In this document: positions 13,411 through 33,947 of the stretch, in pieces
How positions within the stretch are numbered: position 1 is the first letter of the stretch
Layout of the letters: each line of letters begins with the position of its first letter
Virus record (IMG/VR): IMGVR_UViG_3300043803_001519
Location: 1 to 53,318 of that record
DNA from: a virus
Length of the DNA: 53,318 nucleotides
Reading direction: 5' to 3' (one strand)
Translations under genes and position numbers: made by a program
The notes under the pieces: generated by a model
What the model saw: the letters and a program-made list of their open reading frames with translations, nothing else
What the model was told of the DNA's origin: nothing
Databases searched by the model: none

Positions 13411-13412
13411 TC

Positions 13413-13441: not shown

Positions 13442-13442
13442 C

Positions 13443-13661: not shown

Positions 13662-13670
13662 GGAGACCTT

Positions 13671-15790: not shown

Positions 15791-15792
15791 AC

Positions 15793-16038: not shown

Positions 16039-16042
16039 GACC

Positions 16043-16074: not shown

Positions 16075-16121
16075 CTCAGTAACTACTTAGGTGGGGTGCG
16101 GGGAGGATGGCTAGAAGCGCA

Positions 16122-16160: not shown

Positions 16161-16196
16161 TGCAATCTCCTTGGTTGTCGGTGAGTAAGGTGATAG

Positions 16197-16613
16197 TCAC
16201 TGTGGGCCACGAATGCGGCCGATCTCGGCGGAGCGCGCTCTGGCCGCAGCTACGGCCTCATCGACGGACCTAAACCGTGGGAACTGCTGCCCACGGCGCA
16301 GCGCCTGGCGAGCTCGTTTGATCGCTGCCTCTTCGTCGAGCTCGGCGCCATCCCAGATCGTCGGGATGTTGTAGAACCCGTCGTCGAAGCCCACGGTGAT
16401 GGTCCGCTCCGTTGAGAACGAGCCGTCGGGGTTGGCGAGCTTCGGGCGCGAGGTGTCGATCGGGAAGCCGGCCGGATCTACCGGGGCCCCTACACCCCAC
16501 ACCGGGGCGAGGCTGCTTAGCGACTGCATGGACGGTGCGACCGCCCTGCCGCCCTCGATCAGCCGTTGCAGGGAAGACTGCACCCGGGCGTGCTTGGCGA
16601 TCCCCTTGGCCAC
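16197..16613 (-). CDS. phage protein with NPDGSxSTERTIT motif
   Basis: Probable start GTG 16613 (138 residues), since the coding pattern (VAKGIAKHARVQSSLQRL) extends upstream of the alternative ATG at 16529. The centre contains PKLANPDGSFSTERTITVGF and NIPTIWDG followed by DEEAAIKRARQAL, a small domain found in phage virion-associated proteins (from memory) with unknown activity. It follows the tailspike gene by four bases, so it may act with or on the virion. Confidence 0.6.
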   Translation of the reverse strand: MAKGIAKHARVQSSLQRLIEGGRAVAPSMQSLSSLAPVWGVGAPVDPAGFPIDTSRPKLANPDGSFSTERTITVGFDDGFYNIPTIWDGAELDEEAAIKRARQALRRGQQFPRFRSVDEAVAAARARSAEIGRIRGPQ

Positions 16614-16621
16614 TTGGTCAC
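16609..16621 (+). repeat. 8-bp-phased pentamer pair 8
   Basis: GCCAC-TTG-GTCAC on the plus strand, spanning the junction between the tailspike stop (16618) and the next minus-strand gene start. Confidence 0.4.
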
Positions 16622-19200
16622 GCAGCCAGCTTGGGGTTCGCCCCGGTGTACTGGGTGATCGTATTGCCGAACTCCGCGCTGATTGTGAGCCGGCCGGCCG
16701 TCGACACTGCGTCACCAAGTACGTCGAGCGTGCTGTTGGTGATCGCCGCCGTGCCGGTGATGCCGGAAGCACCGCCAAAGAAGACGCCGCCGTCTTCCTT
16801 CGCGCTCCGTACGGTGCAGGCGTTCATCGAGAACGACGACGTTGGGCCATACGGATCGTGCAGCACGCAGTGGAGGTTCGTTGCGCCCGGCGTAGGATCC
16901 CAGCAATGCTCGAAGGTCGAGTTGAGAATGACGACGTTGTTGCTGCTGGCGACGAGCGCATAGCCGTCGAGGTTGTAAGCCCCGCAGCCATTGATGAGAA
17001 TGAGCGCGTTCCAGGGACCGATGCCGGTATGCGAGAAGTCAAAGCCGTCACCGGCGTACGCGGTGTGGTCGGACGCCCAGCCAGTTCGGCTGTCGTACGC
17101 GCCAAGCACGCAGCCCGTCGCCGTGATGTCGCCGGTCTGCGGGCCCTTGACGTAGAACATCTCGCCGCCGTGGTTCTTGGCGGTGCAGTTAGTGAATGTC
17201 AGCGCGCCCCAGGTCATGGCCTCGTAGCCAGGCGTGCCACCGCCGAAGGCGTGGAAGGCCTGGGCCACGTTGCCCTCGAAGTAGCTGCCGACGAGCTCAA
17301 TGTCTCCGTACGCGTGCAGGTTCTGGTCCCGGATCGGCCCGATGCACCAGGCCCCCTGCTGCGTGTTCGGGGTCGACAGCCCCGTGAAGAACCCGCCAGT
17401 GACGGTCAGCTTGTTGGCGCGATCTGCCGCGCAGAGCGCAATCCGGGTGTTGAAGAACGTGGCCTGCGAGGCGTCGACTTGAGTCGTCGATGGCCGTACG
17501 TGGAGGTCGCGGGGCTGCCGGCCGATAGCCACTACTTTGTCGGTGGAAACGGTGAGCGGCACCAGCAGCGTCGAGTGCAGGGAGAGCTTCCTGAGCTCCG
17601 GCCAGACGATCTCGGCGATGCGCTTGTACCCGGCCGACGTCGGGTGGACGTCACCGTCGAGGACGTCAGTACGCTTCGTGTCATTGCCGTCTGGAGTCGT
17701 GACGGCCCGATCGTTGTCCGGGTGCGAGCCGATGGCGTACTCGGGCGGCTGCGTGCCAACCGGCGCCCACAGGGGCCAGGTATCGACCCGTGCGAACTCG
17801 ACCGGTTGCCCGGAGCCGTTGACCAGGGCGGGCGCCAGTGTGGCCAGGAGCGCTCGCTGGTTGGCGATCTCCGCGTAGTAGCCGGCAGCCTTGGTGGTGG
17901 CGACAGCCTCGGGAGTATAGAACGGGTCGAACCAGATCAACTTCTGGAGGCTCTTGCACTTCAGTGCGACGCCCTCCAGGTAGATCTTGATCTGGAAGAC
18001 GTTGTTGCTGTCCATTGGGTCGCTGACTGCGCCAGCGGTGAAGCCGCTGACGTCGTTAACGGAGCCAAGGGCGATGATGACGTCGGGCCCAGTCCCGCTT
18101 TCCCAAGCGGCCAGCGCGTCGCCAGGCCCGCCGCCGAACGGGTTCAGGTCAGTGCGGTAGCCATTCCCCGGATCCCCGGCGTTGAAGATCTTGAACCAGA
18201 GCCGCTGGCGGTTGTAGAGGTACGCCAGCGACTGCAGCCACCAGCCCCAGTAGCCGTTGCCCTGCTCGGCGTTGATGCGCGCCGCGCGGGCGGCGTTGAC
18301 GGCCCCGTCGGTCTGTACGCCCTCGATGTCCGCCTGGGTCTGCGTCTTCGGCTCGCCCGCCGTGTTACGGTTGGTCGCTCCGGCCACGAACGAGTCGCCG
18401 ATGAGCCCGACGCGCAGCGCGGACGTGATCGGGGCGAGCGTCCGCTTGAGGAACTGAACGCGGCGTATCGCGCCGTTACGCCAGAAGGCAGACGGAGCAG
18501 CATCGCCGCGCCCGCCGATTGTGACCGTGCCCATGCGTGCTGCGCCGCTGGTGACCGTCTCGGCGCTGATAACCAGCCCGTCGATGATTAGATACTCGGT
18601 AGTGCCGTCCCACGTCAGGATGACAGTCGCCCACTCCTGGTCGAGGAATGACGGAACATTGTCCGCGATCCGGGTGATCTGGGCCATGACCGGGGCAGCC
18701 GCGGTCTTCAGGTCGTCGTGCCAGACGAGCGTGCGGGTCGTGGCGTTCTGGTTGAGGTACAGCCACCGCTCGGTGCTGAAGTTGTTGCCGGACCAGAGCA
18801 GCGAGGCCGTCGCCGTCGCGGTATCGGTGTTGCCGTCCAGGTCCGCGAAGTCGCCCGGGTCGAACGTCGAGTCGTCGTAGGCGAGCCCGGACCGCTGGAC
18901 CTCCATGACGATCGCGCCAGCAGCGGCCATCGCCGCGCTGTGGGGAAAGGAGGTTCTCTGGAGCGCCTTCAGGCCGTTGGGGACGAAGCCCAGGACAGGG
19001 TCAGGAACGTAGGTCCCGCTGACGGACGCAGTGCGCTCTGCCCACGCCGCCTGCGGCAACCGGAGGTCTAAGTCGAGGACCAGGTCCGGGTCAGTGGTCG
19101 GGACGAGCGGCGAGAACGTGTCGGCGCCGGCCTCGAAGCGACCAACGATCGAGCGCAGGATGTCCTGCGCGATATCGCTCGTGGCCGCTGCAGTCGTCAT
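16618..19200 (-). CDS. tailspike with SGNH esterase and beta-helix
   Basis: An 860-residue protein. The N-terminal part resembles a lectin-like jelly roll (ERWLYLNQNATTRTLVWHDD; TTEYLIIDGLVIS). The middle is an SGNH/GDSL hydrolase: block I VGLIGDSFVAG (about residue 270), VIIALGSVND (about 380) and DGDVHPTSAGYKRIA (about 517) holding the catalytic Asp/His. The C-terminal region has the turn-rich repeats of a right-handed beta-helix (LTVTGGFFTGL, ALTFTNCTAKN, LILINGCGAYN). Likely a receptor-binding spike that de-acylates host surface polysaccharide. Start ATG overlaps the upstream stop (TAATG). Confidence 0.75.
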   Translation of the reverse strand: MTTAAATSDIAQDILRSIVGRFEAGADTFSPLVPTTDPDLVLDLDLRLPQAAWAERTASVSGTYVPDPVLGFVPNGLKALQRTSFPHSAAMAAAGAIVMEVQRSGLAYDDSTFDPGDFADLDGNTDTATATASLLWSGNNFSTERWLYLNQNATTRTLVWHDDLKTAAAPVMAQITRIADNVPSFLDQEWATVILTWDGTTEYLIIDGLVISAETVTSGAARMGTVTIGGRGDAAPSAFWRNGAIRRVQFLKRTLAPITSALRVGLIGDSFVAGATNRNTAGEPKTQTQADIEGVQTDGAVNAARAARINAEQGNGYWGWWLQSLAYLYNRQRLWFKIFNAGDPGNGYRTDLNPFGGGPGDALAAWESGTGPDVIIALGSVNDVSGFTAGAVSDPMDSNNVFQIKIYLEGVALKCKSLQKLIWFDPFYTPEAVATTKAAGYYAEIANQRALLATLAPALVNGSGQPVEFARVDTWPLWAPVGTQPPEYAIGSHPDNDRAVTTPDGNDTKRTDVLDGDVHPTSAGYKRIAEIVWPELRKLSLHSTLLVPLTVSTDKVVAIGRQPRDLHVRPSTTQVDASQATFFNTRIALCAADRANKLTVTGGFFTGLSTPNTQQGAWCIGPIRDQNLHAYGDIELVGSYFEGNVAQAFHAFGGGTPGYEAMTWGALTFTNCTAKNHGGEMFYVKGPQTGDITATGCVLGAYDSRTGWASDHTAYAGDGFDFSHTGIGPWNALILINGCGAYNLDGYALVASSNNVVILNSTFEHCWDPTPGATNLHCVLHDPYGPTSSFSMNACTVRSAKEDGGVFFGGASGITGTAAITNSTLDVLGDAVSTAGRLTISAEFGNTITQYTGANPKLAA
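16703..16715 (+). repeat. 8-bp-phased pentamer pair 9
   Basis: GACAC-TGC-GTCAC inside the 3' end of the SGNH tailspike gene. Confidence 0.35.
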
Positions 19201-19496
19201 TAGATGAGCACCCCGCCACCGATGGTGCCGGACGTGCGCGACGTGACGTTGAGACGAACCGCGTCGACATGCCCGATGCGGACGATCTTGTTTTCGGTGA
19301 TGCCTGTCTCGACCTTGGCCCAGGCGAGCGAGGCATCGACGCGGGCCTCGATGTCGACGATAGCGGCGCCGGTCAACACAACCTGTACAGACGCCTCCTG
19401 ACGACCGAGGCGGGCCGCCTTGGCCATCCCGGAGAGTTCAACGGCGGTGGTCTGCCCGACGCCAGACAGAGTGTCGAAGGAGGTGTACATGCTCAT
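19200..19496 (-). CDS. small virion-associated protein
   Basis: A 98-residue Ala/Val-rich, beta-type protein (ASVQVVLTGAAIVDIEARVD; VRLNVTSRTSGTIGGGVLI) lying between two tailspikes. The composition fits a structural or capping component of the receptor-binding apparatus. No family is recognised. It starts four bases after the upstream tailspike stop. Confidence 0.55.
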   Translation of the reverse strand: MSMYTSFDTLSGVGQTTAVELSGMAKAARLGRQEASVQVVLTGAAIVDIEARVDASLAWAKVETGITENKIVRIGHVDAVRLNVTSRTSGTIGGGVLI

Positions 19497-19499
19497 GGT

Positions 19500-21431
19500 C
19501 TAAGCTCCGAGGTTGGGCAGGTTCTTCCAGCCCGTTGAGGTGAACTGGCGCCCCATGGCCGCTCCGGCCGCGGCGTCGGTGTAGATGGCTGTGTCGCCAA
19601 CGACGAACGGCCCACCACCGGCTTCGTAGGCTGCCTGGCTTGCAACGCTCCAGCGCAGGACCAGCTTGCCAGCCTCGACTGAGCCGACTGCGTTCGGGGC
19701 CGACTCGACCCGGCCTTCGTAGATCGCTTCGGCGCAGTCACCGGGGGCGAAGACCACCTCGTCGATGACGACGTACTCGGTCCCGGCAGCCAGGCTGTTG
19801 GAGTCGTTCAGGTAGACCCACAGGATGATGCTCGTGACAGCAGCCGGGATGTCGGCCACCACCCACACGAAGTTGTAGGCGCCAGGGGTCAGGTACTTGG
19901 TCGGGTCGGACTTGGTCTCGGCCAGGCCGGAGCTCGTGGTCGTGGCCACGCCGATGCGCACCGGCATGGTCGGGGCGGGGCCAGCGAAGCCGTCAGCCTC
20001 CGGGACGTAGAGCCAGACAGCGAACGTCATCCTGCGCGCGGCAGTCGCGTTCAGGAGCTCCGTGGAGATGAGGGAGAAGCCGTAGCGGTTCTGGGGCGTC
20101 CCCGCGGTGGCCGTTACGCGCATGGCGTTGGGCGGCGTCCTGACGAGGACAGACTCGTTGGCGTCGCTGACGTTGACTGCCGCGCGCCCGGTGCCGAACC
20201 GCTGCCCCTCGAGGAACCGGTTGGGGAACAGGTTCTGGGCAAGCGGGAAAGTCTCTTCGACGGCCGCGGTCGGGTAACCGAAGGCGACGGCCGGCATCCG
20301 CGGGCGCCGGTTCGACGTGGCCGAGGTCGTCTTGATGCTGCGCCGGTTCGTGCCGGTGTCAAAGCGGACGTCGATGTCCCAGTCGCGGACCTTGTCGAGC
20401 TCGATGGGGTAGGCCGCGCCACCGGGGCCCGAGACGGTTCCGCTCTGGATCTTGAACCCGTTGACCTTGGAGACCGTGCCGACGCGGAGCCACGGCGTCT
20501 CGATACGGCCAACCTGGGCCGTCTTGTAGACCCCGATGATGAGGTTCCCGCCGCCGTTGATGGCGCTGGCCAGGGTGCCGTACGCCGTCAGGTCGAGCCA
20601 GCGGAGGATATTCAGGGCGACCGTGTCGTTGAGGTCGAGCGACCGCAGGGCGTTGATGCTGACGAGGTCCAGGAGCCCGCCGTTCAGCCGTTCGCCCCGC
20701 AGCGACAGGCCGCAGTTGTCGGTACGGATCCGCAGGGTGCCGTTCTCGCCCATGGCCCAGACGCCCTCGGCGCAGCCGAAGACGTGGACGTCGAGCTCGC
20801 CGTTGCTGACGTCGTCGACGTCCGGGTTGCCGCCCGGCCGCCCCCACTGGAGGCCGACGCACTGCACGGCCTGGGTCGGGCCGGCGACGTCCGCGCCGAT
20901 CCCGAAGCCGGCCAGGTAGGCGCCGGTGAGCGCCGGGTCGACCCGCAGGACCGGCTGGAGGGCGCCGTTGTCGTCCAGGTCCGTGATCAGGGCCTTGAAC
21001 CAGGAGCGGGCCACCGCCGACGAGCGCCCGTAGCCAAGGCCGATGATCGGGCACGTCACGTCGACCGTGCGGCCGACGCCGATGCCGAAAGGCGTGGGGG
21101 AGACGAGCAGCCCCAGCTTCCGCTCGGTCAGCTCGGCGATGGCCGCCTCGAGCTCGTCAGCCTCGTCCTCGCCGCTGCCGGACAGCCGCATCTCCTCGGC
21201 CGTGACCCAGCCGCTGGAGAGGCCGTACGTCGGCCGGAACGACTGGAGCATGCGCTCGAAGTCCGAGGGGGTGGCGGCTACGACGCGCTTGGCGTTCGAG
21301 TCCCAGACGAGCGGGGCGTCCCGCGTCGGGTCAAGGTCAAGGTCGCTGTCCCCCGTACCGTAGACACCGATACGAAGGTTGGCCAACCCCTCCAGGGGGC
21401 CGCGGTTCCTGACTGGTCCAGATGATGGCAT
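19500..21431 (-). CDS. tailspike/tail fibre with beta-helix
   Basis: A 643-residue protein. The N-terminus (GPLEGLANLRIGVYGTGDSD) resembles virion-attachment segments of spikes. Residues about 120-330 show short-strand beta-helix repeats (LDLVSINALRSLDLNDTVAL, LIIGVYKTAQVGRIET). A C-terminal beta-sandwich (SLISTELLNATAARRMTFAV, FVWVVADIPAAVTSIILWVY) looks like a carbohydrate-binding module. Catalytic residues are not identifiable by eye. Likely a second host-recognition spike. Confidence 0.6.
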   Translation of the reverse strand: MPSSGPVRNRGPLEGLANLRIGVYGTGDSDLDLDPTRDAPLVWDSNAKRVVAATPSDFERMLQSFRPTYGLSSGWVTAEEMRLSGSGEDEADELEAAIAELTERKLGLLVSPTPFGIGVGRTVDVTCPIIGLGYGRSSAVARSWFKALITDLDDNGALQPVLRVDPALTGAYLAGFGIGADVAGPTQAVQCVGLQWGRPGGNPDVDDVSNGELDVHVFGCAEGVWAMGENGTLRIRTDNCGLSLRGERLNGGLLDLVSINALRSLDLNDTVALNILRWLDLTAYGTLASAINGGGNLIIGVYKTAQVGRIETPWLRVGTVSKVNGFKIQSGTVSGPGGAAYPIELDKVRDWDIDVRFDTGTNRRSIKTTSATSNRRPRMPAVAFGYPTAAVEETFPLAQNLFPNRFLEGQRFGTGRAAVNVSDANESVLVRTPPNAMRVTATAGTPQNRYGFSLISTELLNATAARRMTFAVWLYVPEADGFAGPAPTMPVRIGVATTTSSGLAETKSDPTKYLTPGAYNFVWVVADIPAAVTSIILWVYLNDSNSLAAGTEYVVIDEVVFAPGDCAEAIYEGRVESAPNAVGSVEAGKLVLRWSVASQAAYEAGGGPFVVGDTAIYTDAAAGAAMGRQFTSTGWKNLPNLGA

Positions 21432-21440
21432 TCGCGGACC

Positions 21441-21890
21441 TTACGGACTGACCTTGCGGGCTGCCACTTGCGCGCTCAGCACAGGCAGGCCACAGGAGTT
21501 CACGACCTCGCAGGCGATCTCCGCGGCCCGGACGGCGTCGGCTCCCGCCAGCATGGCCGCCAGGGCCGCCTGCTCGCCGCTCCCGGCGCTCAGCGGGACA
21601 TCGGCGGGCCAGGGCATCGGAATGGTGGCGTCGTCGTAGACCTCCACCCGGCCGTCGTCGTAGAGCAGGATGACCTCGGAGTCGTCCAGGTCGTCCGGCG
21701 CCAGGCGCTCGGGGTCCTCGAGCCAGGCGTACAGCTCATGGATCTTCGAGAGTGTTCCAGCCCCGGCTGCCCACGCCCGCAGTCGCTCGATCCTCACCAG
21801 CTTCTTCCAGCCCGGTCTCAGCTTCGTAGAACCGGAGCACACTAGGGAGTCGACGGCGAGCGTACCGTCTTTGTAGGCGACGACTGTCAC
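21441..21890 (-). CDS. proteasome-beta/HslV-like Ntn-hydrolase fold protein
   Basis: A 149-residue protein starting MTVVAYKDGTLAVDSL, the opening of the 20S beta/HslV-like family with a Thr directly after the initiator Met (potential N-terminal nucleophile), and a DS pair at the usual position. Later, GSGEQAALAAMLAGADAVRA matches the GSG...A..A.. helix of that fold. Such proteins are widespread in phage lysis/tail regions. Proteolytic activity is not established, and maturation would need removal of Met. It is coupled to the Rz1 stop by a 4-base overlap. Confidence 0.7.
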   Translation of the reverse strand: MTVVAYKDGTLAVDSLVCSGSTKLRPGWKKLVRIERLRAWAAGAGTLSKIHELYAWLEDPERLAPDDLDDSEVILLYDDGRVEVYDDATIPMPWPADVPLSAGSGEQAALAAMLAGADAVRAAEIACEVVNSCGLPVLSAQVAARKVSP

Positions 21891-22165
21891 TTTCCTCGGC
21901 TCCAGGTTGCGATTTCGGCCTTGTCTTCGTTACACCGTCGGAGTGCTCGGACGGCGGCAGCGGCTTCGGCCTCCAGTGAGTCGTTCTTTTCGATCTGGGC
22001 AAAGTCGGGCACCTTAGTCGGGGTCAGGAGTTCCTCCGGCGGCTGCACGCGCACGTACTCCACCACCGGCGTTGCCACAGGCTTCACCACCGGCGGCTTC
22101 ACACAGCCGGCGGCGAACGCTGTCAGGTACAGGGCGATCAGCCCATTCCGCGTAGTCGGGTTCAT
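21887..22165 (-). CDS. Rz1: outer-membrane spanin (Rz1-like lipoprotein)
   Basis: ATG 22165 gives 92 residues with a signal peptide and lipobox TAFAAGC (Cys21), then a Pro/Val-rich segment (KPPVVKPVATPVV) typical of Rz1. It overlaps the i-spanin 3' end by about 150 bases in another frame, the classic nested Rz/Rz1 arrangement, but extends well beyond it with a helical C-terminus. Expected role: outer-membrane lipoprotein that binds the i-spanin and fuses the membranes in the last step of lysis of a Gram-negative host. Confidence 0.75.
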   Translation of the reverse strand: MNPTTRNGLIALYLTAFAAGCVKPPVVKPVATPVVEYVRVQPPEELLTPTKVPDFAQIEKNDSLEAEAAAAVRALRRCNEDKAEIATWSRGK

Positions 22166-22499
22166 TGGTCCTGGCCTCCTGCTGCTGGCGGCGGAACGTC
22201 TCCACCTCACGCTCGGCACGACGTGCCCGGTCACTGAGTCGCTTGGTCACTGCGTCACGGGCAGCGACCTCACCTTGCAGCGCGATGATCCCGCGCTGCA
22301 GGGCTTCGATCTGGAGTTGCTTGCTGGCCGAGGTGTCGGCGGCCACGATCCCGGCGATCTCAGCCTGGCAGGCCAGCCCGGCGGCCCGGAGCTCCGCGAC
22401 CTTGTCGACCAGTAGCTTGGTGGCCAAGATCGTAGTGACGAGGAGCGCCACGATCGCGTATGCCCAGAAGGGCAGCTTGGCGAGTAGCGCCTTGATCAC
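22014..22499 (-). CDS. Rz: inner-membrane spanin (Rz-like)
   Basis: GTG 22499 (overlapping the endolysin stop as GTGA) gives 161 residues. One N-terminal transmembrane segment (WAYAIVALLVTTILATKLL, about residues 12-30) is followed by a long periplasmic coiled coil to about residue 110 (ALQGEVAARDAVTKRLSDRA, EREVETFRRQQQEA). This is the i-spanin topology. Rz1 is encoded out of frame in its distal part. A phased pentamer array lies in its coding sequence at 22230-22258. Confidence 0.8.
   Translation of the reverse strand: MIKALLAKLPFWAYAIVALLVTTILATKLLVDKVAELRAAGLACQAEIAGIVAADTSASKQLQIEALQRGIIALQGEVAARDAVTKRLSDRARRAEREVETFRRQQQEARTNEPDYAEWADRPVPDSVRRRLCEAAGGEACGNAGGGVRARAAAGGTPDPD
22230..22258 (+). 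repeat. 8-bp-phased pentamer array 10
   Basis: GTCAC-TGA-GTCGC, then TTG-GTCAC, then TGC-GTCAC: four pentamers in 8-bp register on the plus strand, inside the Rz coding sequence and 65 bases upstream of the Rz1 start. Confidence 0.65.
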
Positions 22500-22990
22500 A
22501 CCTCGGCCCCGGTCTCGGCCGAGCAGGCCAGCGCGAAGAACGGCTCGGCCTTCTCGATGGTGCCCTTGCCGAGGAGGGTGTTGTAGAACACCTTCCAGTA
22601 CTTGGCCATGCCCAGGCTGTTCGCCGGGCCAGGGAGTTCCTGGGGGATCCGCCGGTAGAAGACCCGGCACATCGCCGCCGCGTAGCAGAGGTTGCCCTGC
22701 ATCTCGAAGACGCTGTCGGCGACCGGGTACATCCCGGAGCGCAGGACCATGACCTTGTGCTCGAGGTCCGGGCGCTCCTTCAGCCAGCGCAGGAGGTCCT
22801 TGTAGGTCGCCGGCTCGATCTGGAAGATCGAGATGGCCGGGCCTTTGACCTGGCGCACGTAGGCCGCCTTGGACTCAACCAGGGCGGTACCAAGGACCAG
22901 GTTCTCGGCGGCCGGGCTCCAGAGCCCGATGGACTCCAGGGCCGGCCGGATGACGAACTGACGAAGCTGGGTAGGGTCAAGACCACGCAT
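22496..22990 (-). CDS. endolysin (lysozyme/transglycosylase-like)
   Basis: A 164-residue protein. It carries a lysozyme-like glutamate motif LGTALVESKAAY (Glu39 the candidate catalytic acid), followed by SIFQIEPATYKDLL and GNLCYAAAMCRVFYRRIP, resembling soluble lytic-transglycosylase-type phage endolysins. Genes in order (endolysin, Rz, Rz1) form the lysis cassette. No signal peptide or SAR domain is seen, so a holin elsewhere must release it. None is obvious next to it. Confidence 0.7.
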   Translation of the reverse strand: MRGLDPTQLRQFVIRPALESIGLWSPAAENLVLGTALVESKAAYVRQVKGPAISIFQIEPATYKDLLRWLKERPDLEHKVMVLRSGMYPVADSVFEMQGNLCYAAAMCRVFYRRIPQELPGPANSLGMAKYWKVFYNTLLGKGTIEKAEPFFALACSAETGAEV

Positions 22991-23027
22991 GGGGGTAGCC
23001 TACGAAGCCCCTCGCGGGGCTGCCGCC

Positions 23028-26000
23028 TTAGCCGCCGGCCAGGGTCGCCCCGACCGCCCTGCGGGCAGGCGGGAGCTGGTTCAGGATGGGGACCGCCCGG
23101 ACGAGGCTGGTCGAGGCCGGGTCGGCCACCCAGCCGTTGACCTGCTCCACGGTCGGGCCCAGGAGCCCGATGAAGCCGTTGTTGCCCCGCTCGCTGGCCT
23201 CGAAGAAGTCCATGGCGTACTGGCCGATACCCAGGAAGCCCGTCCGCTGCGCCAGGTTACCAAGGTAGGCCAGCGCGTCCTGGTCGTCGGTCGGAGTCTT
23301 TGCGCCCCACAGCCGGTACTGGAAGAGCTCGCGGAGCTCGAGGCCGATCGCGGTCATGAGCATCATCATCATCGCCGGGCCGGCGAGCTTCATCGCGCCC
23401 TGCCAGCCGAGGCCGGCCGCCTTCGCGTTGGCGAACATCTGGCCCATGATCGTGTTCTGGAACAGGTACATGAACTGGTGCAGATGGAAGATGAGCATCG
23501 CCGCCGGGTGCGAGGCCCAGAGCGGGCGCTGCGACGGGTCGGGACGCATCACGGACTCGTTGACGAACTGGATCAGCGCGTCGACGACCTTGTTGTCGGC
23601 CGCGGCGATCGCCGGGTCCGCCTGGCTGTAGGTGGACTCGCCGGGCAACTGCCGGCCGCCCTGCAGCCAGGCCGTGGCCTCCTCGACCGACAGGTTGAGC
23701 TGCTGCAGGTCGTGGATGGCAACCGGGTCGCCCTGCACGGCCTTCGCGGCGCGCTCGGCGATGAAGTCGAGGCCCACGCGCATGCCGACCGAGCGGGTGA
23801 AGTTGGTCCAGCGGTGGAGCTGGATGGCGGTGAACATCTTGTCGTTGATGTTGCGGGCCATGGGCGAGAACCAGTGGTTGTCGTAGTCGTACGACAGGAT
23901 GTGGTTCTGGAACTCGTCGGTGTAGATGCCGTAGATCCGTGCGAGCTGGTTGAAGTCGGAGTTGCGGTTGGCGACGTCCTTGATGCCAGCCTTGAGCGAC
24001 TTCCACGCGAGCTGCATGTTGTTGGCGCGGATGGCCGGGCCGATGATGTCGGGGAACGACGAGAGCGTGCCGAAGAGCAGCGTCCGCATGTTCTGGTAGG
24101 TCAGCACCCAGCCCATGGCCGTGCGGACGTTGGGCGGGAAGTCGCGGCCGTAGCGCCCCAGGGCCGCGTCGACCAGGTCCTTCGTGCGGCGAATCTGGGC
24201 GGCGGTAGCACCGGCCTGGCCCATGTCGTTCAGCATGGACATGAGCTTGGCACGCGGGTTCCAGTTCTTGTAGACCTCGCCGGTCTGCTGGCGCTCCTCG
24301 GGGGAGTTGCGGATCGCCTCCTCGCCGAAGTACTCGTTGAACACCGCGGCGTTCGACAGCGCGTGGATGTAGCGGATCATGCTGACCCGCGGGTTCTGCT
24401 CGATGTACGGCTTGAAGAACGCGTCGCTGAGCATCTTGTGGCGCTTGTTGAAGAAGCGCCCGCTCGGCGTGTCGATCTTGTCGTTGACACCGGGGTTGAA
24501 GTTGATCTGCTCGGGCGCGCCGCTGACCAGCGAGTCGAAGAGCTTCTCCGCGGCCTCCGTGCGCTCGGCGGCCGTGAGCTGGGCCGTCGGGCTGCTGGGC
24601 GTGATGTAGTTGGCTGCCAGGTGCGCCACGATCTTCGTGCGGTCGTCCAGGAGCTTCTGCTTCTCGCCCCACATCAGCGGGATGTAGTTCCTGCGGAAGA
24701 TGAGCGGCAGTCCGCTCTTACGGCCCTTGCCGTAGGCGGCCTGGTAGAAGTCGAGGATCTTCTGGGCCAGCGGTGAGACCTGGGCCGGAGCCTGGCGCCC
24801 GGTCGTGAGCTTCCAGAGCTCCTCGAACGCGGCGTTGATCTCGGCCTCCGGCACGTCCTTGAAGATCTTGATGCCGTCCGCGATCAGCTCGCTGCGGAAG
24901 CGCTGCATCCGGTTGTAGAACGTCGGCTTGTCGTTGCCCGAGATCTGCCCGCGGATGCGGAAGAAGATGTCGGCGAGCTTGTCGCCGCCAGGGATCCGGC
25001 GGAGCTGACCGGCGACGGTGGCGAACGTCTGGTCGAAGAGATCCATGCCGAGCTTCTCGCCATAGGCGATCGTCGGGCTAGCATCGAGCTTCCGCTTGAT
25101 CCGACGGAGCGTGCGCTCGGCGTACCGCTGGCGGACCTTGGCGTCGTAGCCCTTCTGGCCTTTGCGCGGGCGTGGGGCGCCGCCACGAAGTTGGGAAAGC
25201 CGCACCGTCGTGGCGATCTGCTGGGCCAGCTCGAGAAGCGCCGGTGCGCTTTCCCGCGCGCCCTCGATGAGCCACTGTGGCGCACCCGGCACGTCAGCCT
25301 TCTGATTGGCCACCAGCTCAATGAAGGCCTGCGTAATCGCCAGTTTCCCGCGCGAGTTACTGTCAACGGTGCCAGGCGGGCGTTTCTGGCCCATGAGCGC
25401 CGACCGCAGGAATTCGCCGTAGGCCTCCGACGGGCGGAAGAAGCGCGCGAGGGCGTCGTAGATCTTCCGCATCACGCTTCCAAGAGACGCAAAGAACTTC
25501 TCTGTCTCCGGGGTCGCGGCCGGGGCCTTGGAGCCTTCGGACGCCACCGTGCTGATGAACTGGGTAGCCGCCCACTCCTCTACAACACGCACAAGGGCGC
25601 CGAAGTAGGCGTCGCTCCTGCCTAGGGCTTCTACTGGTGACTGTGTCTTGGGATCGATGCCATCGCGCGCAGCAGCAGCGTCCAGCTCGTCCCGATAGGC
25701 CTCGAACGTCGGGCCGAAGATACGGAATCGGCTGGGGACTGTAACACCGGCCTTCCCGCTGTAGATGTCAGCGAGGGCGTCCCGGACGAGAGCGGCGCGA
25801 ACGGCCAATGGCGCGCTCGAGAAGTACTTGCGGAACACGACATGACCGAGCTCGTGGCCGACCACCATGGCGGCCCGGCCACCGGGGCCTCCGAACTCAT
25901 CGATCTCGAGCAGGTTCTTTGGCAGCGTGATGTAGATGCCGTCGTTGAGCACCAGGACAGCGCCGTACTCGGTACCGGTCTTTGACATTGGCCCGCGGGC

Positions 26001-29000
26001 GCTCTTGGCCCCGTCGGTCAGCGACACCACAATCGGCGCATCGGAGACGCCGCCGATGTCAGCAAGCTCGGCGATCATCTTGCCGAACTTGGTCACTGCG
26101 TCACCGAGCTTCGTCCTGTCGCCAGAGCGCTCGTCGAAGAAGTAGAGGCTCTGTCCGGAGTTCATGCGGATCTCGAGCGCCGGGACGATGCCCGCGGCGG
26201 CGTGCGCAGCAATGGTCTCCGACACCGACATCGTGCTGTCTGGTGACACCGCGACCAAGTCACCAAGATCCTTGGTCGTGGTCTCGCCAGTCTGGTTCGC
26301 GGTGTTCCGAAGCGTGCCCAGGACATTCAGCTCAGCAAACGCGGCGGCGTACTCGTTCGTGTAGCGCCGCTCGGCTCCGAGCGAAACGTACTGCGCCACG
26401 CCGTCCAGGAACTCGGCGAACGTGTCGTTGAGCTTGTACTTGGCCCGGACGCGCTGGTAGAAGTCGTAGAGCTTGTCGACGACGCGCTTGAAGAACGAGT
26501 CGACGGCGTTGCGGGTCTTGCGGTTCCGGTCGATGGCCCAGGACACAAGCTGGTCGGCTGCCCACTCCTCGAACCGGCCGCCAGTCTGCGAGCCACGCGG
26601 CGCAGCGGCACGGAGGCGGGCCTGCAGCTCGGGCGTCAGCTTGTTGAAGTAGATCTCGAAGACGGCGTGGCCGAGCTCGTGCGCGATCGCGCGGTAAGCC
26701 CGCTGCCGCGCGACCTCCGGCGAGACGCCCGCCTGGTTCTCGGACACCATCTTGTTCGACAGGTAGATGGTGATGCCGTGGATGGGGTGCATGAACACCC
26801 GGGCAGTGACGCTCGGGTCCGCGGCGGCCTGCTTGAGCAGCTCGCCGAACGGGTGGTCGTCGAACATCGCCGAATTGCGGATCGCCTCCGCGTCGAAGAT
26901 CTCCACGCGGTCCTTGAGGCCGAGGGTCTCGCGGAACACCTCGACCAGTTCGATGACGTCCTTCTGCGTCTGCTCGGACACGCTGTCGAGGCGGACGTAC
27001 GCGACCTGGTCGCGCTGCCCGCGGCGTACGCCGGGCTGCCGCTGGCTCGGCGCCTCGGTGCTCTCCCGGTTGCGGTCCGCCTCGGTGTTCTTGCCGCCGG
27101 CGAACTCGCTACCCGGCATGTCGATGGCCTGCTGGCCGTCGAGCGTGCGCGCATTCAGCTTGGGTTTCCGGACGTTGTCGAGGAACCGGTCTGGCTGGAG
27201 CGGCTGGGCGGCCTCGAAGTTGGCCTGTGCCGGCGACGTCCAGTCCGGCTGGACGAATGCGACGTCTTCGCGCTCAGGGATTCCGTTCTCGTCCAGCGCC
27301 CTGCCAGGGAGGTTGCGCGACTCAACCGCCTGCGGGGCCGAAGGCGTGAAGAACGGGTCCGCGCCACGGTCGAAGACCGGCGTGGTGTCGCGCTCGCCGA
27401 TCTCCTTCTTGGCGGCGCGCTTCTGCTTCTCGTACAGCTTGCCGTAGAACTCGTTCTGGGCCTTGAGCCCCTGGCCCTTCTTCGGAGCGTCAGAACGCGT
27501 ACCAAGAACGCCGCCAGACCCAGGCTCGCCGCGGAAGTCGGACGCCTTGTCCTCTTCCGACTGCTCCTCATCGAAGCCGAGCGGCTGGCCGTCGCGCGAC
27601 CTGTTGCGCGCCTCCATCGTCTCCTTGCGGAGCTCGCCGTAGGTGTATGGCTTCTTGTTGCGGTCGACGCGAATGACGACGGCATCGAGGTCCGCAGCCG
27701 TAAGCGCGCCGTCCTTGCCGGAGCCGCGGATCGCCGGGGCAGAGGCCGAGCCAGTCTCGAGCATGCGGGCGACCGCGGTCTCGAAACCGATGACCGCGCG
27801 CTCAGTCGGATCCTCGGTCTGGAAGACGCCGCCTTCGGCCTCATAGATCCGTGCGCCAGCCTCGGCGAACTGCTTGGCGTCCAGGCGAGAGGCCTTCTCG
27901 CGACCGGGCCAGCGAACGCGGATGATCTCGGCGGGGTTGTCGAAGTCGCGCGCGCTAAGCCGGGCAGACTCGAACCCTTCGTAGAGCTTGAGCCGGGCGG
28001 ACGTGGCCTCGTTCTGCATCGCATCGAGGATGGCGACGTAGAACTTGCCGCCTTCCTCCTGGATGTCGAATGCCGACTCGTCGAGGTCGAAGAAGATCTC
28101 ACGGAGGTCGGCGAGCGCCTTCTCCGCCTGCAGGCGCGTGTTGAACGGAATGGCCTGGCTCGTCTTGCCGTCCCGGCTGAACTTGTCAACGATCGTCCGC
28201 TTCTCGCCCTCGATCCGTTCCTTCGCCTGCTCGGTCCTGTTCTTGACGCGGCGCCCGGCGGTTTTGAGCACATCCACCGGCGACATGCCGAAGCGCTGGC
28301 GCGTGAGCTGCTCGCGGGCCTCGACCTCGTTCAGGAGCTTCCCGCTCTCGAAGTCGTTGCGTGCCATCCGTGACTCGGCATCCAGCGTGGAGTCCTGCTG
28401 GCGCTCGTAGTCCTGGTCGTCCTCGAAATCGTCCGGCCCCATGTCCTTTACGGTCGGGTCACTCAGTGGCGCGGTGTCGAGGTACTTGGCGAGCTGGTCG
28501 GAGTACTTCTTGACGAGCGGCGACACAGTCTCCTGGCGGAACTGGTCCACACGCGCGCGGAAGGTCTTGTTGATCTCGTCGAGGCGAGCCTGCTGCTGGT
28601 CAGCAGGGAGCGCCGCTACCTCTTCGAGCGCCGCGTCGAGCTCCTTGCGAAGGATAGCTGCGAACTCGAGGCCAGGGGTAGCGAGCTCCTGTCCGAGCAT
28701 CTCGGACATGGTCCCGACAGACGTGAGGATGGCCTTGATGTCTTCCTCTGGGAGGATGCCGCCAAAGAGCTTGTCCGCCTCGCGGGCAATGCGTTCGGCT
28801 TCGTCGATCGGCCCCTTGATGTCGGCGTCAATCGCGCCAGAGAAGTAGTTACCGAGGTCCGTGCGGAGCGCGTCCGCAGCGCTCGGCGGCGTCGCGAACG
28901 GATCGGCTGGGCCTGCCGTCGGCGCTGCGGCGCCGCCGACTGCGCTGCCAACCGCCGTCGCGGTCTGCGACATCGGCTGAATGGACATCTCGCGGAGGCG

Positions 29001-30074
29001 GTCCATGAACTTCGCCTTGCGCTCCTTGGCCGCGGCCCAGGCCTGCGTCGCCCGGCCGCCGGCAGCCTGGCTCAGTGCCCGCGGGCCGTCGGCCAGGACG
29101 GTGCTACCGCCGCCCATGACGGCACCGACCAGTGCGCCGGCCGCCGCGGCCTCGAGGATCCGGTCCTTGTTGGCAGGGTCACCGATGTCGAACGACGGGT
29201 CTGCAAACGCCCGCGCGGCGAGCAGCGTGGTCTCCTGCAGGCCCTCGGTGATACCCTCGGCGGGAATGCCCTTGCCGGCCGCCAGGGCGGCTTCCTGGAT
29301 GAAGCTGCGCGCGAGCTTCGGCTCGACGCCCGGGAAGAACTTGCTGATGAACATCATGCCCGGCACGGTGTCGAGCGCGCCCATCGTGAGGCCGGCCGCG
29401 AGGGCCGTGCCCGGGGCGCTGACGCCGGCGTCCATGAGCTCGCCCTGGGCCTCGCCGGTACCGAGTGCCGATGACGACGCGAAGAGGTCGCGCCCCGTCC
29501 GGCGCTGGACGGCCTGGGCCATCTGCCGCTGGACGAGCGGGTCGGCCATCATCTTGCGCACGGTCGCCTGGACTGCGTCCTCGGAGGCAGCCGGCCAGAA
29601 CGCCTTGGTGGCAGCTTCCGCCTCGGCGAACACCGAGCGGCGGAGACCCTGCTCGAAGACGCGGCGGGTGATGGCCGCACCGACGCCGGCCTGGGCGCCG
29701 AGACCGATGATGTACGGCGTCGTCTCGCCGAGCGTGCTGGCGCTCCACTTGAAGAAGTCGCCAACGCTGTTGATGTCGTCGAGGCCACTGACCGCAGCGG
29801 GGTTCCTGGCCATGTCCTCCGACTGCTGCTCCCGCCCGCGCATAGCGGTAGCGCGCGCCGCGGTGTTGCCGGTCAGGTCGCCGACCAGGCCAAGTAGACC
29901 ATACCCGAGGTCCTGGACCTGGTCTACGCCGCGGCTTGCACCGCTGACAAACTCGCCGCCGACGCCCGACGGCTGCGCGCGGTCAAGCCACCCGCTGGGG
30001 GCGCTGCGGACGCTGCTGGCGAGGCCAAGGTCGGCCGAAGGGACCGAGCGTACGTCGAACGGATCAGTAGCCAT
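23028..30074 (-). CDS. giant ejection-type internal virion protein with two metallopeptidase domains
   Basis: A 2,348-residue protein. Its size, position next to the lysis cassette and long helical/coiled-coil regions fit the phage ejection (internal virion) proteins that form a channel through the envelope. Two zinc-metallopeptidase cores are visible: AIAHELGHAVFEIYF near residue 1130 with a downstream RFEEWAADQ, and VVGHELGHVVFRKYF near 1406 with VEEWAATQF. Each offers HExxH plus a distal acidic residue. The C-terminal 700 residues are helical with hydrophobic stretches (MMMMLMTAIGLEL). A cell-wall or protein-cleaving role during genome entry is inferred. Confidence 0.7.
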   Translation of the reverse strand: MATDPFDVRSVPSADLGLASSVRSAPSGWLDRAQPSGVGGEFVSGASRGVDQVQDLGYGLLGLVGDLTGNTAARATAMRGREQQSEDMARNPAAVSGLDDINSVGDFFKWSASTLGETTPYIIGLGAQAGVGAAITRRVFEQGLRRSVFAEAEAATKAFWPAASEDAVQATVRKMMADPLVQRQMAQAVQRRTGRDLFASSSALGTGEAQGELMDAGVSAPGTALAAGLTMGALDTVPGMMFISKFFPGVEPKLARSFIQEAALAAGKGIPAEGITEGLQETTLLAARAFADPSFDIGDPANKDRILEAAAAGALVGAVMGGGSTVLADGPRALSQAAGGRATQAWAAAKERKAKFMDRLREMSIQPMSQTATAVGSAVGGAAAPTAGPADPFATPPSAADALRTDLGNYFSGAIDADIKGPIDEAERIAREADKLFGGILPEEDIKAILTSVGTMSEMLGQELATPGLEFAAILRKELDAALEEVAALPADQQQARLDEINKTFRARVDQFRQETVSPLVKKYSDQLAKYLDTAPLSDPTVKDMGPDDFEDDQDYERQQDSTLDAESRMARNDFESGKLLNEVEAREQLTRQRFGMSPVDVLKTAGRRVKNRTEQAKERIEGEKRTIVDKFSRDGKTSQAIPFNTRLQAEKALADLREIFFDLDESAFDIQEEGGKFYVAILDAMQNEATSARLKLYEGFESARLSARDFDNPAEIIRVRWPGREKASRLDAKQFAEAGARIYEAEGGVFQTEDPTERAVIGFETAVARMLETGSASAPAIRGSGKDGALTAADLDAVVIRVDRNKKPYTYGELRKETMEARNRSRDGQPLGFDEEQSEEDKASDFRGEPGSGGVLGTRSDAPKKGQGLKAQNEFYGKLYEKQKRAAKKEIGERDTTPVFDRGADPFFTPSAPQAVESRNLPGRALDENGIPEREDVAFVQPDWTSPAQANFEAAQPLQPDRFLDNVRKPKLNARTLDGQQAIDMPGSEFAGGKNTEADRNRESTEAPSQRQPGVRRGQRDQVAYVRLDSVSEQTQKDVIELVEVFRETLGLKDRVEIFDAEAIRNSAMFDDHPFGELLKQAAADPSVTARVFMHPIHGITIYLSNKMVSENQAGVSPEVARQRAYRAIAHELGHAVFEIYFNKLTPELQARLRAAAPRGSQTGGRFEEWAADQLVSWAIDRNRKTRNAVDSFFKRVVDKLYDFYQRVRAKYKLNDTFAEFLDGVAQYVSLGAERRYTNEYAAAFAELNVLGTLRNTANQTGETTTKDLGDLVAVSPDSTMSVSETIAAHAAAGIVPALEIRMNSGQSLYFFDERSGDRTKLGDAVTKFGKMIAELADIGGVSDAPIVVSLTDGAKSARGPMSKTGTEYGAVLVLNDGIYITLPKNLLEIDEFGGPGGRAAMVVGHELGHVVFRKYFSSAPLAVRAALVRDALADIYSGKAGVTVPSRFRIFGPTFEAYRDELDAAAARDGIDPKTQSPVEALGRSDAYFGALVRVVEEWAATQFISTVASEGSKAPAATPETEKFFASLGSVMRKIYDALARFFRPSEAYGEFLRSALMGQKRPPGTVDSNSRGKLAITQAFIELVANQKADVPGAPQWLIEGARESAPALLELAQQIATTVRLSQLRGGAPRPRKGQKGYDAKVRQRYAERTLRRIKRKLDASPTIAYGEKLGMDLFDQTFATVAGQLRRIPGGDKLADIFFRIRGQISGNDKPTFYNRMQRFRSELIADGIKIFKDVPEAEINAAFEELWKLTTGRQAPAQVSPLAQKILDFYQAAYGKGRKSGLPLIFRRNYIPLMWGEKQKLLDDRTKIVAHLAANYITPSSPTAQLTAAERTEAAEKLFDSLVSGAPEQINFNPGVNDKIDTPSGRFFNKRHKMLSDAFFKPYIEQNPRVSMIRYIHALSNAAVFNEYFGEEAIRNSPEERQQTGEVYKNWNPRAKLMSMLNDMGQAGATAAQIRRTKDLVDAALGRYGRDFPPNVRTAMGWVLTYQNMRTLLFGTLSSFPDIIGPAIRANNMQLAWKSLKAGIKDVANRNSDFNQLARIYGIYTDEFQNHILSYDYDNHWFSPMARNINDKMFTAIQLHRWTNFTRSVGMRVGLDFIAERAAKAVQGDPVAIHDLQQLNLSVEEATAWLQGGRQLPGESTYSQADPAIAAADNKVVDALIQFVNESVMRPDPSQRPLWASHPAAMLIFHLHQFMYLFQNTIMGQMFANAKAAGLGWQGAMKLAGPAMMMMLMTAIGLELRELFQYRLWGAKTPTDDQDALAYLGNLAQRTGFLGIGQYAMDFFEASERGNNGFIGLLGPTVEQVNGWVADPASTSLVRAVPILNQLPPARRAVGATLAGG
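26092..26104 (+). repeat. 8-bp-phased pentamer pair 11
   Basis: GTCAC-TGC-GTCAC, an exact pair preceded by TTG, inside the giant virion-protein gene. Confidence 0.5.
26243..26279 (+). repeat. 8-bp-phased pentamer array 12
   Basis: GTGAC-ACC-GCGAC, then CAA-GTCAC, then CAA-GATCC and TTG-GTCGT: five positions in 8-bp register, three close to consensus. It lies 140 bp from pair 11 in the same gene. Confidence 0.5.
28458..28478 (+). repeat. 8-bp-phased pentamer array 13
   Basis: GTCAC-TCA-GTGGC-GCG-GTGTC, in 8-bp register with the second and third pentamers degenerate, inside the giant virion-protein gene. Confidence 0.35.
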
Positions 30075-30077
30075 AGG

Positions 30078-32123
30078 TTACGGAGGCAGTACCATCGCGC
30101 GGTTGGCGGTCGTCTGAGTCTGGCGCTCCAGTTCGTCGGCAAGAGCCTTCTCGCCCAGCATGGCTACCCGGTACATCTCCGGCGTGGCCTGTACCTCGCC
30201 ACGCATGATCTGCTGCCGGAGCTCGCGCACCATCTCGGGGCTCTGCTGAGTCCGCGGGACTTCGATTCGTGCGGTAGCGCCATCGCCGGAATTGTAGTTG
30301 ACCAGGTTGGTATCGCCGGTCGAACCGATCTCGCCACCAGTCCAGCGCCTCCAGAAGAACCGGTTATCCTCGACGCGCTTGTACTTAAGCCAGCGTGCTG
30401 CGTTAGTGACTACGGTGGCCAACTTGGTCGGGTCGGCGGTACTGAGATCGCTCAGGTCGATGCCATAGGCAGCCTGGATCATGTCGGCGTTGTTCCGCAG
30501 GGTCGCGAGGACATCAGTCCGATCATTGGTGATGTCGCCGTTGATTGGATTCGCTGCGACGATCTGGTCGACCATGTCGAGGCGCTCTTTTGGCCACTCC
30601 TCCATGATCTTGCGGCGCTTGCCTTCGTCGATCAGCGGCCGCCCCGTCACGAGGTTACGGATCGGCGCCCAAGTGGTGCCGTAGCGCACGCCCATCATGC
30701 CGTCGCTTGTGGAGAGCTCGACGCCCTTCTCGGGGTCCGGGGGCGCGTACTGCTTCGCGAGCGCCGTGATGGCCGCCGCGGGGACGCCGTTGGCCATGGC
30801 GATGCCGAGGGCCTGCATCTGCCGATTGTTGAAGGTCTCGGCGTCTACGGGCAGCCGCGAGACCGTCGTCACCGCGCTGCGCACGGCGCCCGGCTCGGCG
30901 TACGGATACGGCGAGTCCTGGGACATAGCGACCTGGGCGACGGTCTCGAGGAACCTCGGGCTGCGCGCGTCGAAGGTGCCCGGCGCGACGGCGAGCGCAC
31001 GGATCTCCGTGAGCTCGGTGATCGGGGTCTTGGCTGCGTTCGCGAGGACCGCAGTCGACACGTCGAGCTCGCGACGCGCCGTCCTGAACTCGGGGTCCTT
31101 CGGGTCAAGGCCGCGCAGCTTGGTCGCAGCGGCCTCTGCGGTCTGCCGGGCGTACTTCGCTACGAACGGGTCCGAGACCTTCCGGGCGTCGTCACTCAGT
31201 GAGGCGCGGACGGCTCCGTAATTCCGTACCATCTTGTATGGGTTGGCCTCGAAGTCAGCCCGATACTTCTCGAAGCCCTTGTCATTGCGCGCGACGCCAG
31301 GCCAGAACTGTTCCTGCGTGACCGCGTCGCGCCGCATCCCATCCCGCCCGCGGGTGTCAGCGTAGAGCGGTACGCCGACAGCAGGGGCGCTGGGGTTGGA
31401 GGAGAGGCCGGCGAGGACCGACGAAAGCGCCGGTCGGTCAGGGACCGCCTCTGGGCCGGCGTAGCCGAGCGGGGCCGGCGGCTCCATAAGGTCGGGGTTA
31501 GGGCCAGGCAGTGCGTCGTAGTCAGCGCCGTTCGCGGGCGACATGACCAGCTCTGTCTTCGTCGGCGGCCTCGGCGCCTGGGGCAGCGCGGCCGGGCCAG
31601 CGGCAGCGGCGTCCGCCTCCCCGCTCAGGACACGGCGCGCCTGCTCGAAGCCGTCGAGCATCCGCTGCCGCTCCGCTGCCGCGGCGACGCGGGCCCGCCC
31701 TTCGGCCGCGACGCGCTGACGCTCGGCGATGTCCTGGTTGAGGAAGTTCGCGAGCGTCGGGTTGGTCGCCGCGCGCTGCATGAAGAACTCGCGGTCCGTC
31801 GGCGCAAGGGCGTCGAGCTTGAAGCCGGTGTCGGCGAGCTTGCCGAACGCGTAGCGGTCCTGGTAGATGTCCGCCAGACCTTGGCTGCGGATGTTCCGGC
31901 GCTCGTTAATCTCCTCGCGATTGAGCTCGTCGATCTCCCGCTGGCGAGCCTGGTCGATCTCGTAGCGCCGGTTGTTCTCGGCGTCGAGACGGCCGATGCG
32001 CGCCGTCTCGCGCTCCTGCAAGTCGATCTGCCGTCGACGCTGGAACAGCGTGTCGACGAACCCGTAGCCGGCCAGGAGCCCGCTTGAGAATGCGTTAGCC
32101 CGAAGGCCGCTGATCCCGCTCAT
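30078..32123 (-). CDS. putative internal virion/ejection protein
   Basis: A 681-residue protein just upstream of the giant ejection protein. The N-terminal 150 residues are charged and coiled-coil forming (RRRQIDLQERETARIGRLDA, QAREREIDEL-like heptads). The rest is Ala/Pro-rich and helical with no catalytic motif. In podoviruses two or three such proteins are packed in the capsid and ejected in order. The position fits that role, but no sequence match is claimed. Its start overlaps the preceding gene by 29 bases. Confidence 0.55.
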   Translation of the reverse strand: MSGISGLRANAFSSGLLAGYGFVDTLFQRRRQIDLQERETARIGRLDAENNRRYEIDQARQREIDELNREEINERRNIRSQGLADIYQDRYAFGKLADTGFKLDALAPTDREFFMQRAATNPTLANFLNQDIAERQRVAAEGRARVAAAAERQRMLDGFEQARRVLSGEADAAAAGPAALPQAPRPPTKTELVMSPANGADYDALPGPNPDLMEPPAPLGYAGPEAVPDRPALSSVLAGLSSNPSAPAVGVPLYADTRGRDGMRRDAVTQEQFWPGVARNDKGFEKYRADFEANPYKMVRNYGAVRASLSDDARKVSDPFVAKYARQTAEAAATKLRGLDPKDPEFRTARRELDVSTAVLANAAKTPITELTEIRALAVAPGTFDARSPRFLETVAQVAMSQDSPYPYAEPGAVRSAVTTVSRLPVDAETFNNRQMQALGIAMANGVPAAAITALAKQYAPPDPEKGVELSTSDGMMGVRYGTTWAPIRNLVTGRPLIDEGKRRKIMEEWPKERLDMVDQIVAANPINGDITNDRTDVLATLRNNADMIQAAYGIDLSDLSTADPTKLATVVTNAARWLKYKRVEDNRFFWRRWTGGEIGSTGDTNLVNYNSGDGATARIEVPRTQQSPEMVRELRQQIMRGEVQATPEMYRVAMLGEKALADELERQTQTTANRAMVLPP
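31191..31203 (+). repeat. 8-bp-phased pentamer pair 14
   Basis: GTCAC-TCA-GTGAG, in 8-bp register with the second unit degenerate, inside the 681-residue virion-protein gene. Confidence 0.3.
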
Positions 32124-33131: not shown

Positions 33132-33947
33132 TTACGGCCCAATCTTGGTATTGGCGACGATGCTGCCAGCCGACGGGCCGATCGTCGACGAGCCAGCGCT
33201 GGCAATCGCGCCCGGCGCGGTCGGCGTCGGTGTGCGGTTCATCCACAGGTTAGCGGCGCCACCCAGGCCTATGCCGGCCAGGCCGCCGATGAAGTTGGCC
33301 TTGTTGACGTCGCGGAACTGGTTGACCGCGTCCATGCCGCCCTGGTAGCCGGACAGCATCTCGTTGAACTTGGCGACGCTACGCAGTCCCGTAGCCTGCA
33401 TGCCACGGCCGGCCTGGGCCGCCTGCATGCGCGCCTGGAGCAGGTTCATCTTGCCGGCGTCGCTCGTGGCCATGGCGATCCGGGAGAGGGCCTTGACGCG
33501 GCTCATGCCGCCGGCGAGCTCGTCTTCGGGGCGCACGGCGTTGTTGCCGGTGCCGGCGGGGCGGAGGCCAGCGATCTTGGCCTCGGTCTGCCCGGCGTTG
33601 ACGGCCGCCTGGGTCTCGGCGTCGTTGCCGTAGAGCATCCGCCGGAGGTGCTCCGAGCGGGCGTCGCGGGCCATCGACCCGCTGCGGTAGATCTGGTCGG
33701 CCGCGGCCCGAAGGTCGCCCTCGAGGAGGAAGTACGGGTTGCCCGCGTTATTCCATTCCTTCTCGGTGAGGCGCTCCGGGTTTGGATTCGTACGCGTGCC
33801 GAGCACCCCACCGACCATGCGGGTGAAAACGCCCCCCCGGTTCTTGGGCATCTCCAATGTCATTGACGGGAGCGGCTCGGGCGTGAAAACGCCCCCCCGG
33901 TTCTTGGGGATCTCCAATGTCATTGACGGGAGCGGTTTGGATGCCAT
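33132..33947 (-). CDS. virion-associated protein with tandem 20-residue N-terminal repeat
   Basis: A 271-residue protein. The N-terminus contains two nearly identical 20-residue units (PLPSMTLEIPKNRGGVFTPE and PLPSMTLEMPKNRGGVFTRM). The rest is helical and Ala/Gly/Met-rich (LLQARMQAAQAGRGMQATGL) with a Gly-rich hydrophobic segment (IGGLAGIGLGGAANLW). It sits in the ejection-protein cluster, 4 bases from the S74-like gene start. Probable internal or tail-associated structural protein. Confidence 0.55.
   Translation of the reverse strand: MASKPLPSMTLEIPKNRGGVFTPEPLPSMTLEMPKNRGGVFTRMVGGVLGTRTNPNPERLTEKEWNNAGNPYFLLEGDLRAAADQIYRSGSMARDARSEHLRRMLYGNDAETQAAVNAGQTEAKIAGLRPAGTGNNAVRPEDELAGGMSRVKALSRIAMATSDAGKMNLLQARMQAAQAGRGMQATGLRSVAKFNEMLSGYQGGMDAVNQFRDVNKANFIGGLAGIGLGGAANLWMNRTPTPTAPGAIASAGSSTIGPSAGSIVANTKIGP
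33823..33935 (-). repeat. 60-bp tandem duplication
   Basis: Two copies of a 60-bp unit (33823-33875 and 33883-33935) differ by one base in the compared part (33849 versus 33909). In frame it duplicates 20 residues at the N-terminus of the 33132-33947 protein. The near-identity indicates a recent event. Confidence 0.9.

Follow-up and report, generated by a model that had tools for sequence, protein, structure and literature searches.

An ejection-type podovirus protein with two probable zincin-type metallopeptidase domains

Why does a single, very large podovirus protein carry two apparent zinc peptidase motifs, and what might they cut? The protein, of 2,348 residues, is encoded in a 53,318-base virus sequence from IMG/VR, referred to throughout as the window. 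The original prediction saw in it two metallopeptidase cores within an ejection-type virion protein, a description that the analysis supports. Over its last 350 residues the protein matches PHROG 30152, annotated as "virion structural protein" (3e-24), and its gene shares a block with genes for a portal of the P22 type (Pfam, 1e-102), for a capsid protein, and for further tail and virion proteins; because of this homology and this position, we regard the product as a probable virion protein. KPP25 has a portal 39% identical to the one encoded here, and comparison of the genes indicates that we are dealing with the late structural genes of a Kochitakasuvirus-related podovirus. A tblastn search with the full protein gave matches in KPP25, phiR18, CRPAP1904, tf, Aeromonas phage phiA008, JB8, and Roseobacter phage CRP-810, and the adjoining large gene (30078–32123, 681 aa) corresponds in size and place to phiA008 gene 67 (681 aa). 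The large ejection proteins of the KPP25/LUZ24 type are marked by homologous N- and C-terminal modules and a place in the late structural block, and both were found here, so that by homology the protein appears to belong to the KPP25/phiA008/LUZ24 podovirus group of ejection-type virion proteins. By analogy with these podovirus relatives, it would be packaged and ejected. Searched by sequence against the PDB, the whole protein gave chance matches only. Long open reading frames also cross the gene on the opposite strand; we took these to be by-products of high G+C.

We confirmed the exact positions of the two HELGH motifs, which had been noted as lying about 275 residues apart in this one protein, each with EEWAA downstream (Table 1). 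The motif starts are 275 residues apart, and the distance from HExxH to EEWAA is 37 residues in copy 1 versus 92 in copy 2. When the protein was shuffled 2,000 times, HExxH occurred on average 0.0065 times per protein and never twice, which argues that the HELGH pair did not arise by chance.

Table 1. Features of the ejection-type gene and its product, in window coordinates
Feature	Residues	Window positions	Strand	Basis
Zincin-bearing ejection-type virion protein, whole gene	1–2,348 (2,348 aa)	23028..30074	-	ORF; C-terminal PHROG 30152 match; tblastn matches
N-module, rich in small residues; hydrophobic stretches at 225–243 and 310–328	~3–424	28803..30068	-	Family profile, hydropathy
Variable middle, without recognized domain	~425–1040	26955..28802	-	No Pfam match
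Predicted zincin domain 1	1039–1231	26382..26960	-	AlphaFold model; dN/dS ~0.05 vs sibling phage
HELGH, putative zinc-binding/catalytic motif, domain 1	1132–1136	26667..26681	-	H, E, H invariant in 16-domain alignment
EEWAA, domain 1; Glu 1170 presumed third zinc ligand	1169–1173	26556..26570	-	Glu is fourth invariant column of 16-domain alignment
Predicted zincin domain 2	1310–1578	25341..26147	-	AlphaFold model; Foldseek PDB ranking
HELGH, putative zinc-binding/catalytic motif, domain 2	1407–1411	25842..25856	-	Invariant in alignment A5
EEWAA, domain 2; Glu 1500 presumed third zinc ligand	1499–1503	25566..25580	-	Invariant in alignment A5
C-module, common to all family members	~1645–2338	23061..25142	-	Family profile

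To place these motifs in their family, we used a set of 40 non-redundant long homologues that cover the zincin region, drawn from scans of IMG/VR and genome contigs and including annotated phages. In every one of the 40, HExxH occurs at least once at the corresponding place and is followed by a glutamate motif, and the sequence around this conserved motif pair was only about 20% identical among them. In an alignment of 16 divergent zincin domains (A4), the sole invariant columns were the H, E, and H of HExxH and the E of the downstream motif, which follows the pattern [x]E[WY]xA[DSE]; the HExxH residues and the downstream Glu were likewise invariant in alignment A5. HExxH with a downstream ExxAD glutamate is the gluzincin pattern, in the ExxAD form of M48. 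The zincin domains of relatives matched M48 (five members, best 5e-6), M78/IrrE (seven members), and the PHROG 87 "metallo-protease" family, and one of them, the first zincin of the IMG/VR phage L010, exceeded the Pfam M48 cut-off (23.7 vs. 20.3 bits). The window copies share the motif and the ExxAD-type glutamate with the M48 and M78 gluzincins but match neither profile, nor any other family in a Pfam search. When domain profiles were compared with PDB sequences, metalloproteases led the list at E >0.05.

Structure prediction around the HELGH helices gave a zincin-like order of elements in both copies, rather than the lack of a metallopeptidase fold that would have told against the original prediction, and so supports the fold without proving it. 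AlphaFold modeled copy 1 (pLDDT 72.5, pTM 0.63) as alpha-beta-beta-beta-alpha(HExxH)-alpha(Glu) and copy 2 (pLDDT 65.7, pTM 0.69) with the same order, with the HExxH and Glu motifs of both copies in predicted helices; the match in the order of helix, three strands, and two active-site helices comes from models of moderate confidence that had no significant PDB match. Among the Foldseek matches of copy 2 in the PDB, the top four were anthrax lethal factor (two entries), an M61 aminopeptidase, and SPRTN (E 0.09–0.96), and ZMPSTE24 ranked ninth and tenth, with none significant over the listed E range of 0.09 to 1.7. The corresponding list for copy 1 was not dominated by zincins and contained no significant match; against BFVD, copy 1 matched three uncharacterized phage proteins of ~980 aa with probability 1.0. 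The non-significance of every PDB fold match is what could be said for reading the HExxH motifs as accidental or purely structural, with no peptidase behind them. We consider that reading very improbable, given the shuffling result and the retention of the motif pair in every long homologue despite the divergence around it. From the motifs and the models, we read both copies as zincin-type metallopeptidase cores defined by HExxH and a downstream Glu of the ExxAD type.

Profiles built from the ends of the family proteins defined an N-module (~430 aa) and a C-module (~650–700 aa). The long members run in the order N-module, variable middle, at least one HExxH, C-module, and in those that were profiled the last HExxH lies 105–400 residues before the C-module, the distance being 606 in CRP-810 when two neighboring genes are read together. 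In that phage, a 31-bp tandem duplication where genes 35 and 34 meet (L006:10671–10735) shifts the frame, and the two genes together correspond to what is one long ejection gene in relatives; the split may be real or an assembly error. The large virion proteins of the LUZ24/PaP3/tf type (about 1,020–1,060 aa) share the N- and C-modules by profile but lack both the middle region and the zincin: tf gp51 (1,021 aa; N-module 1e-24, C-module 3e-66) and p19 of the PaP3-type phage Epa1 (1,056 aa; N-module 9e-30, C-module 4e-44) have little between their modules and no HExxH, and the JB8 homologue (1,043 aa) has no HExxH either. The middle can hold cargo, as we interpret the cpYpsA (SLOG-type) and DUF7831 domains at residues 736–1054 of the 3,755-aa ejection protein of IMG/VR phage L014.

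A duplicated zinc peptidase had been considered unusual for such a protein, a view that the family weakens. A single zincin is the rule, and more than one occurs in 5 of the 40 long homologues: the window protein, L010 (three), L014 (two), CRP-810 (two), and the homologue from Microcystis phage Mae-Yong1326-1 (two). The relatives closest in C-module sequence, L045 and L046 (37–38% identity), carry one zincin each. Gene 66 of Aeromonas phage phiA008 resembles the window protein in its N-module, zincin (HELGH ... DEWFADQ), and C-module (33% identity) but has a single zincin. The virion structural protein of KPP25, phiR18, and CRPAP1904 (Kochitakasuvirus) has a homologous C-module (25% identity over 425 aa), alongside the related portal, and a zincin (HESMH ... 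EERIA) just before it; this group differs in having one zincin, of a distinct subgroup (100/100 support), rather than two. In cultured P. aeruginosa phages of the KPP25 type, the zincin is unannotated (HESMH ... EERIAY, residues 1052–1110 of a partial ORF in L031, KPP25).

Giant proteins of this kind have a precedent in the polyvalent proteins, which carry one to five copies of zincin-like MPTase domains per protein, about 8% of the MPTase-bearing ones having more than one (PMC5512222, Iyer et al. 2017). Their MPTase core consists of a helix, three strands, the HExxH helix, and a later glutamate-bearing helix (PMC5512222), the layout predicted for both window copies, and in both cases a giant phage protein is encoded among late structural genes. 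A polyvalent protein is a large phage or plasmid polypeptide with several unrelated domains, catalytic ones included; the window protein combines an N-module, two predicted zincins, and a C-module. It differs in that neither an LPD nor another catalogued enzyme was recognized in it and in that its sequences are too far from the Pfam models to match. The family is tied to the polyvalent proteins by the Mae-Yong1326-1 homologue (L056:1283–8608; C-module match 1e-54), because this protein carries LPD1 (PF18796) behind its second HExxH (1.8e-12, above cut-off). That homologue was deposited as a "peptidoglycan transglycosylase," and a Pfam search at E 0.01 found no transglycosylase domain in it. 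The main text of PMC5512222 does not name the KPP25/LUZ24 ejection-protein family, which its supplements may list. Taken with the motifs and models, these likenesses make it probable that the window encodes an ejection-type polyvalent protein with two metallopeptidase domains of the zincin type. Single zincins are standard and double ones occasional in the family, and the window protein is a clear but rather unexceptional representative of an established class of multi-domain phage proteins.

The virion RNA polymerase of N4 (gp50) is likewise a giant ejected protein, with RNA polymerase cargo, a zincin (HELVH 2228 ... NEFMA), and a C-terminal region in that order; it differs in having no detectable homology to the N- or C-module, and the zincins are alike in motif only. 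A match of the window protein to PHROG 2206 (E 0.0014) was not upheld by the family profiles, and we attributed it to composition rather than to homology with the N4 modules. The RNA polymerase that is fused to the tape measure in P23-45 also has a metallopeptidase, described as a feature typical of many such tape measures (PMC10770324).

We were also interested in how one protein came to have two zincins. The original prediction had explained them as an internal duplication that kept both active sites. Their identical HELGH and EEWAA strings and neighboring positions would suit a recent tandem duplication within the gene, and sisterhood of the copies is not rejected by the AU test (p 0.39 and 0.15) in zincin trees that resolve the placement of neither. 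However, the copies gave only two short local matches to each other (29.3 and 27.3 bits), compared with 61 bits for the best match of copy 1 among relatives (L021) and 39 bits for that of copy 2 (L013), and their motif spacing is unequal. At E <0.01, copy 1 matches the zincins of 22 relatives and copy 2 those of eight; by position it is copy 2 that occupies the usual family slot, and by sequence it is copy 1 that is nearer to the usual single domains. A recombination boundary also separates the two. Over positions 13031 to 27234 the window shares 99.5% identity with a sibling contig (IMGVR_UViG_3300042556_002280), and the two ejection proteins are near-identical from residue ~1256 on and strongly diverged toward the N-terminus, which points to a sharp recombination boundary at about position 26300, close behind zincin 1 and between the two zincins. 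A recent tandem copy is thus improbable, and gain of the second domain by mosaic shuffling, or an old duplication or separate gain, would fit the sequences better. Elsewhere in the window, two 53-base stretches 60 bases apart (33823–33935) show cross-matches to the sibling contig of the kind that a short tandem repeat would give.

The same comparison allowed an estimate of selection on zincin 1 alone, since the amino acids of zincin 2 are identical in the two phages. Across residues 1041–1265 there were 26 synonymous and 3 non-synonymous codon changes (dN 0.009, dS 0.182, ratio 0.05). The dN/dS figures were 0.12/0.34 for the middle region and 0.39/0.68 for the N-module, the latter being rough owing to alignment and saturation. 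No other part of the diverged stretch is as constrained as zincin 1, which is under strong purifying selection.

Both zincins are most likely active peptidases that work after ejection, on their own protein or on host proteins. In the mechanism that we propose, the N- and C-modules would keep the protein in the head and take it through the channel. The zincins, placed between the middle region and the C-module, would act as zinc peptidases during or after ejection, and self-cleavage would separate everything upstream from the C-module once the protein has been delivered. The protein's own chain is the likeliest single target, with a chance that we put slightly short of even, because the place of the zincin is fixed at the border of middle and C-module, because the compact homologues lack both the middle and the zincin, and because the N4 virion RNA polymerase shows a similar order, a likeness of layout only. 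Speaking against self-processing, the N4 polymerase is packaged uncut, and the literature examined reports neither a processed product nor a cleavage site for the KPP25-type protein. Host proteins, such as channel-blocking envelope, defense, or transcription proteins, are nearly as likely to be what the zincins cut after ejection, in which case they would leave their own chain intact. Such an effector role has been proposed for some MPTases of polyvalent proteins (PMC5512222) and agrees with the conservation of the catalytic residues in all 40 long homologues and of copy 1 in particular; that the compact LUZ24-type homologues dispense with the zincin is also what would be expected of optional cargo. 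On the other hand, the near-fixed place of the zincin just before the C-module better suits a processing site.

Action at an earlier stage seems unlikely. The zincins might trim their own protein or neighboring virion proteins before entry into the head or within it, as P1 DdrB, an MPTase-bearing polyvalent protein, is processed before packaging (PMC5512222); the N4 virion RNA polymerase, with its comparable layout, is packaged uncut (PMC5512222), which argues against obligatory processing before packaging, and the homologous protein of tf and PaP3-type phages lacks a zincin altogether. That these phages do without one also makes a general need for a peptidase in channel assembly unlikely; the original prediction had the two copies perhaps acting on envelope proteins, or on phage proteins at that stage. 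Returning to self-processing, we tentatively suggest a model for the whole group in which the N- and C-modules form a delivery chassis, the zincin at the junction cleaves the protein once it has been ejected, setting free a changeable cargo, and the second, differently derived zincin of the window protein allows another cut or another target; the compact LUZ24-type proteins would then be the chassis with neither cargo nor peptidase.

We found no paper on metallopeptidases of podovirus ejection proteins. The near-universal zincin of the KPP25-type protein and its chassis and cargo relation to the LUZ24 type were likewise not found in the literature examined and may be new, unless the supplements of PMC5512222 list them. 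Across a broad group of podoviruses, among them the cultured phages KPP25, phiR18, phiA008, CRP-810, and Mae-Yong1326-1, an unannotated metallopeptidase appears to be a regular part of the large ejection proteins, and its presence goes with that of a cargo-bearing middle region. Whether virion-borne zincins act on their own protein or on the host has been a question since polyvalent proteins were described, and these cultured relatives make it testable.

Two further observations concern other parts of the window. The large terminase gene (45782–48781, minus strand) contains an intein (Pfam Intein_splicing, 5e-17) that starts with CMTGDTPV, ends with VSHN, and lies directly before the TRWHDDD motif. 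The early block encodes a SNF2-type helicase and a DUF5906/VapE-like primase-helicase (8123–9688 and 4663–7020, respectively, both on the plus strand).
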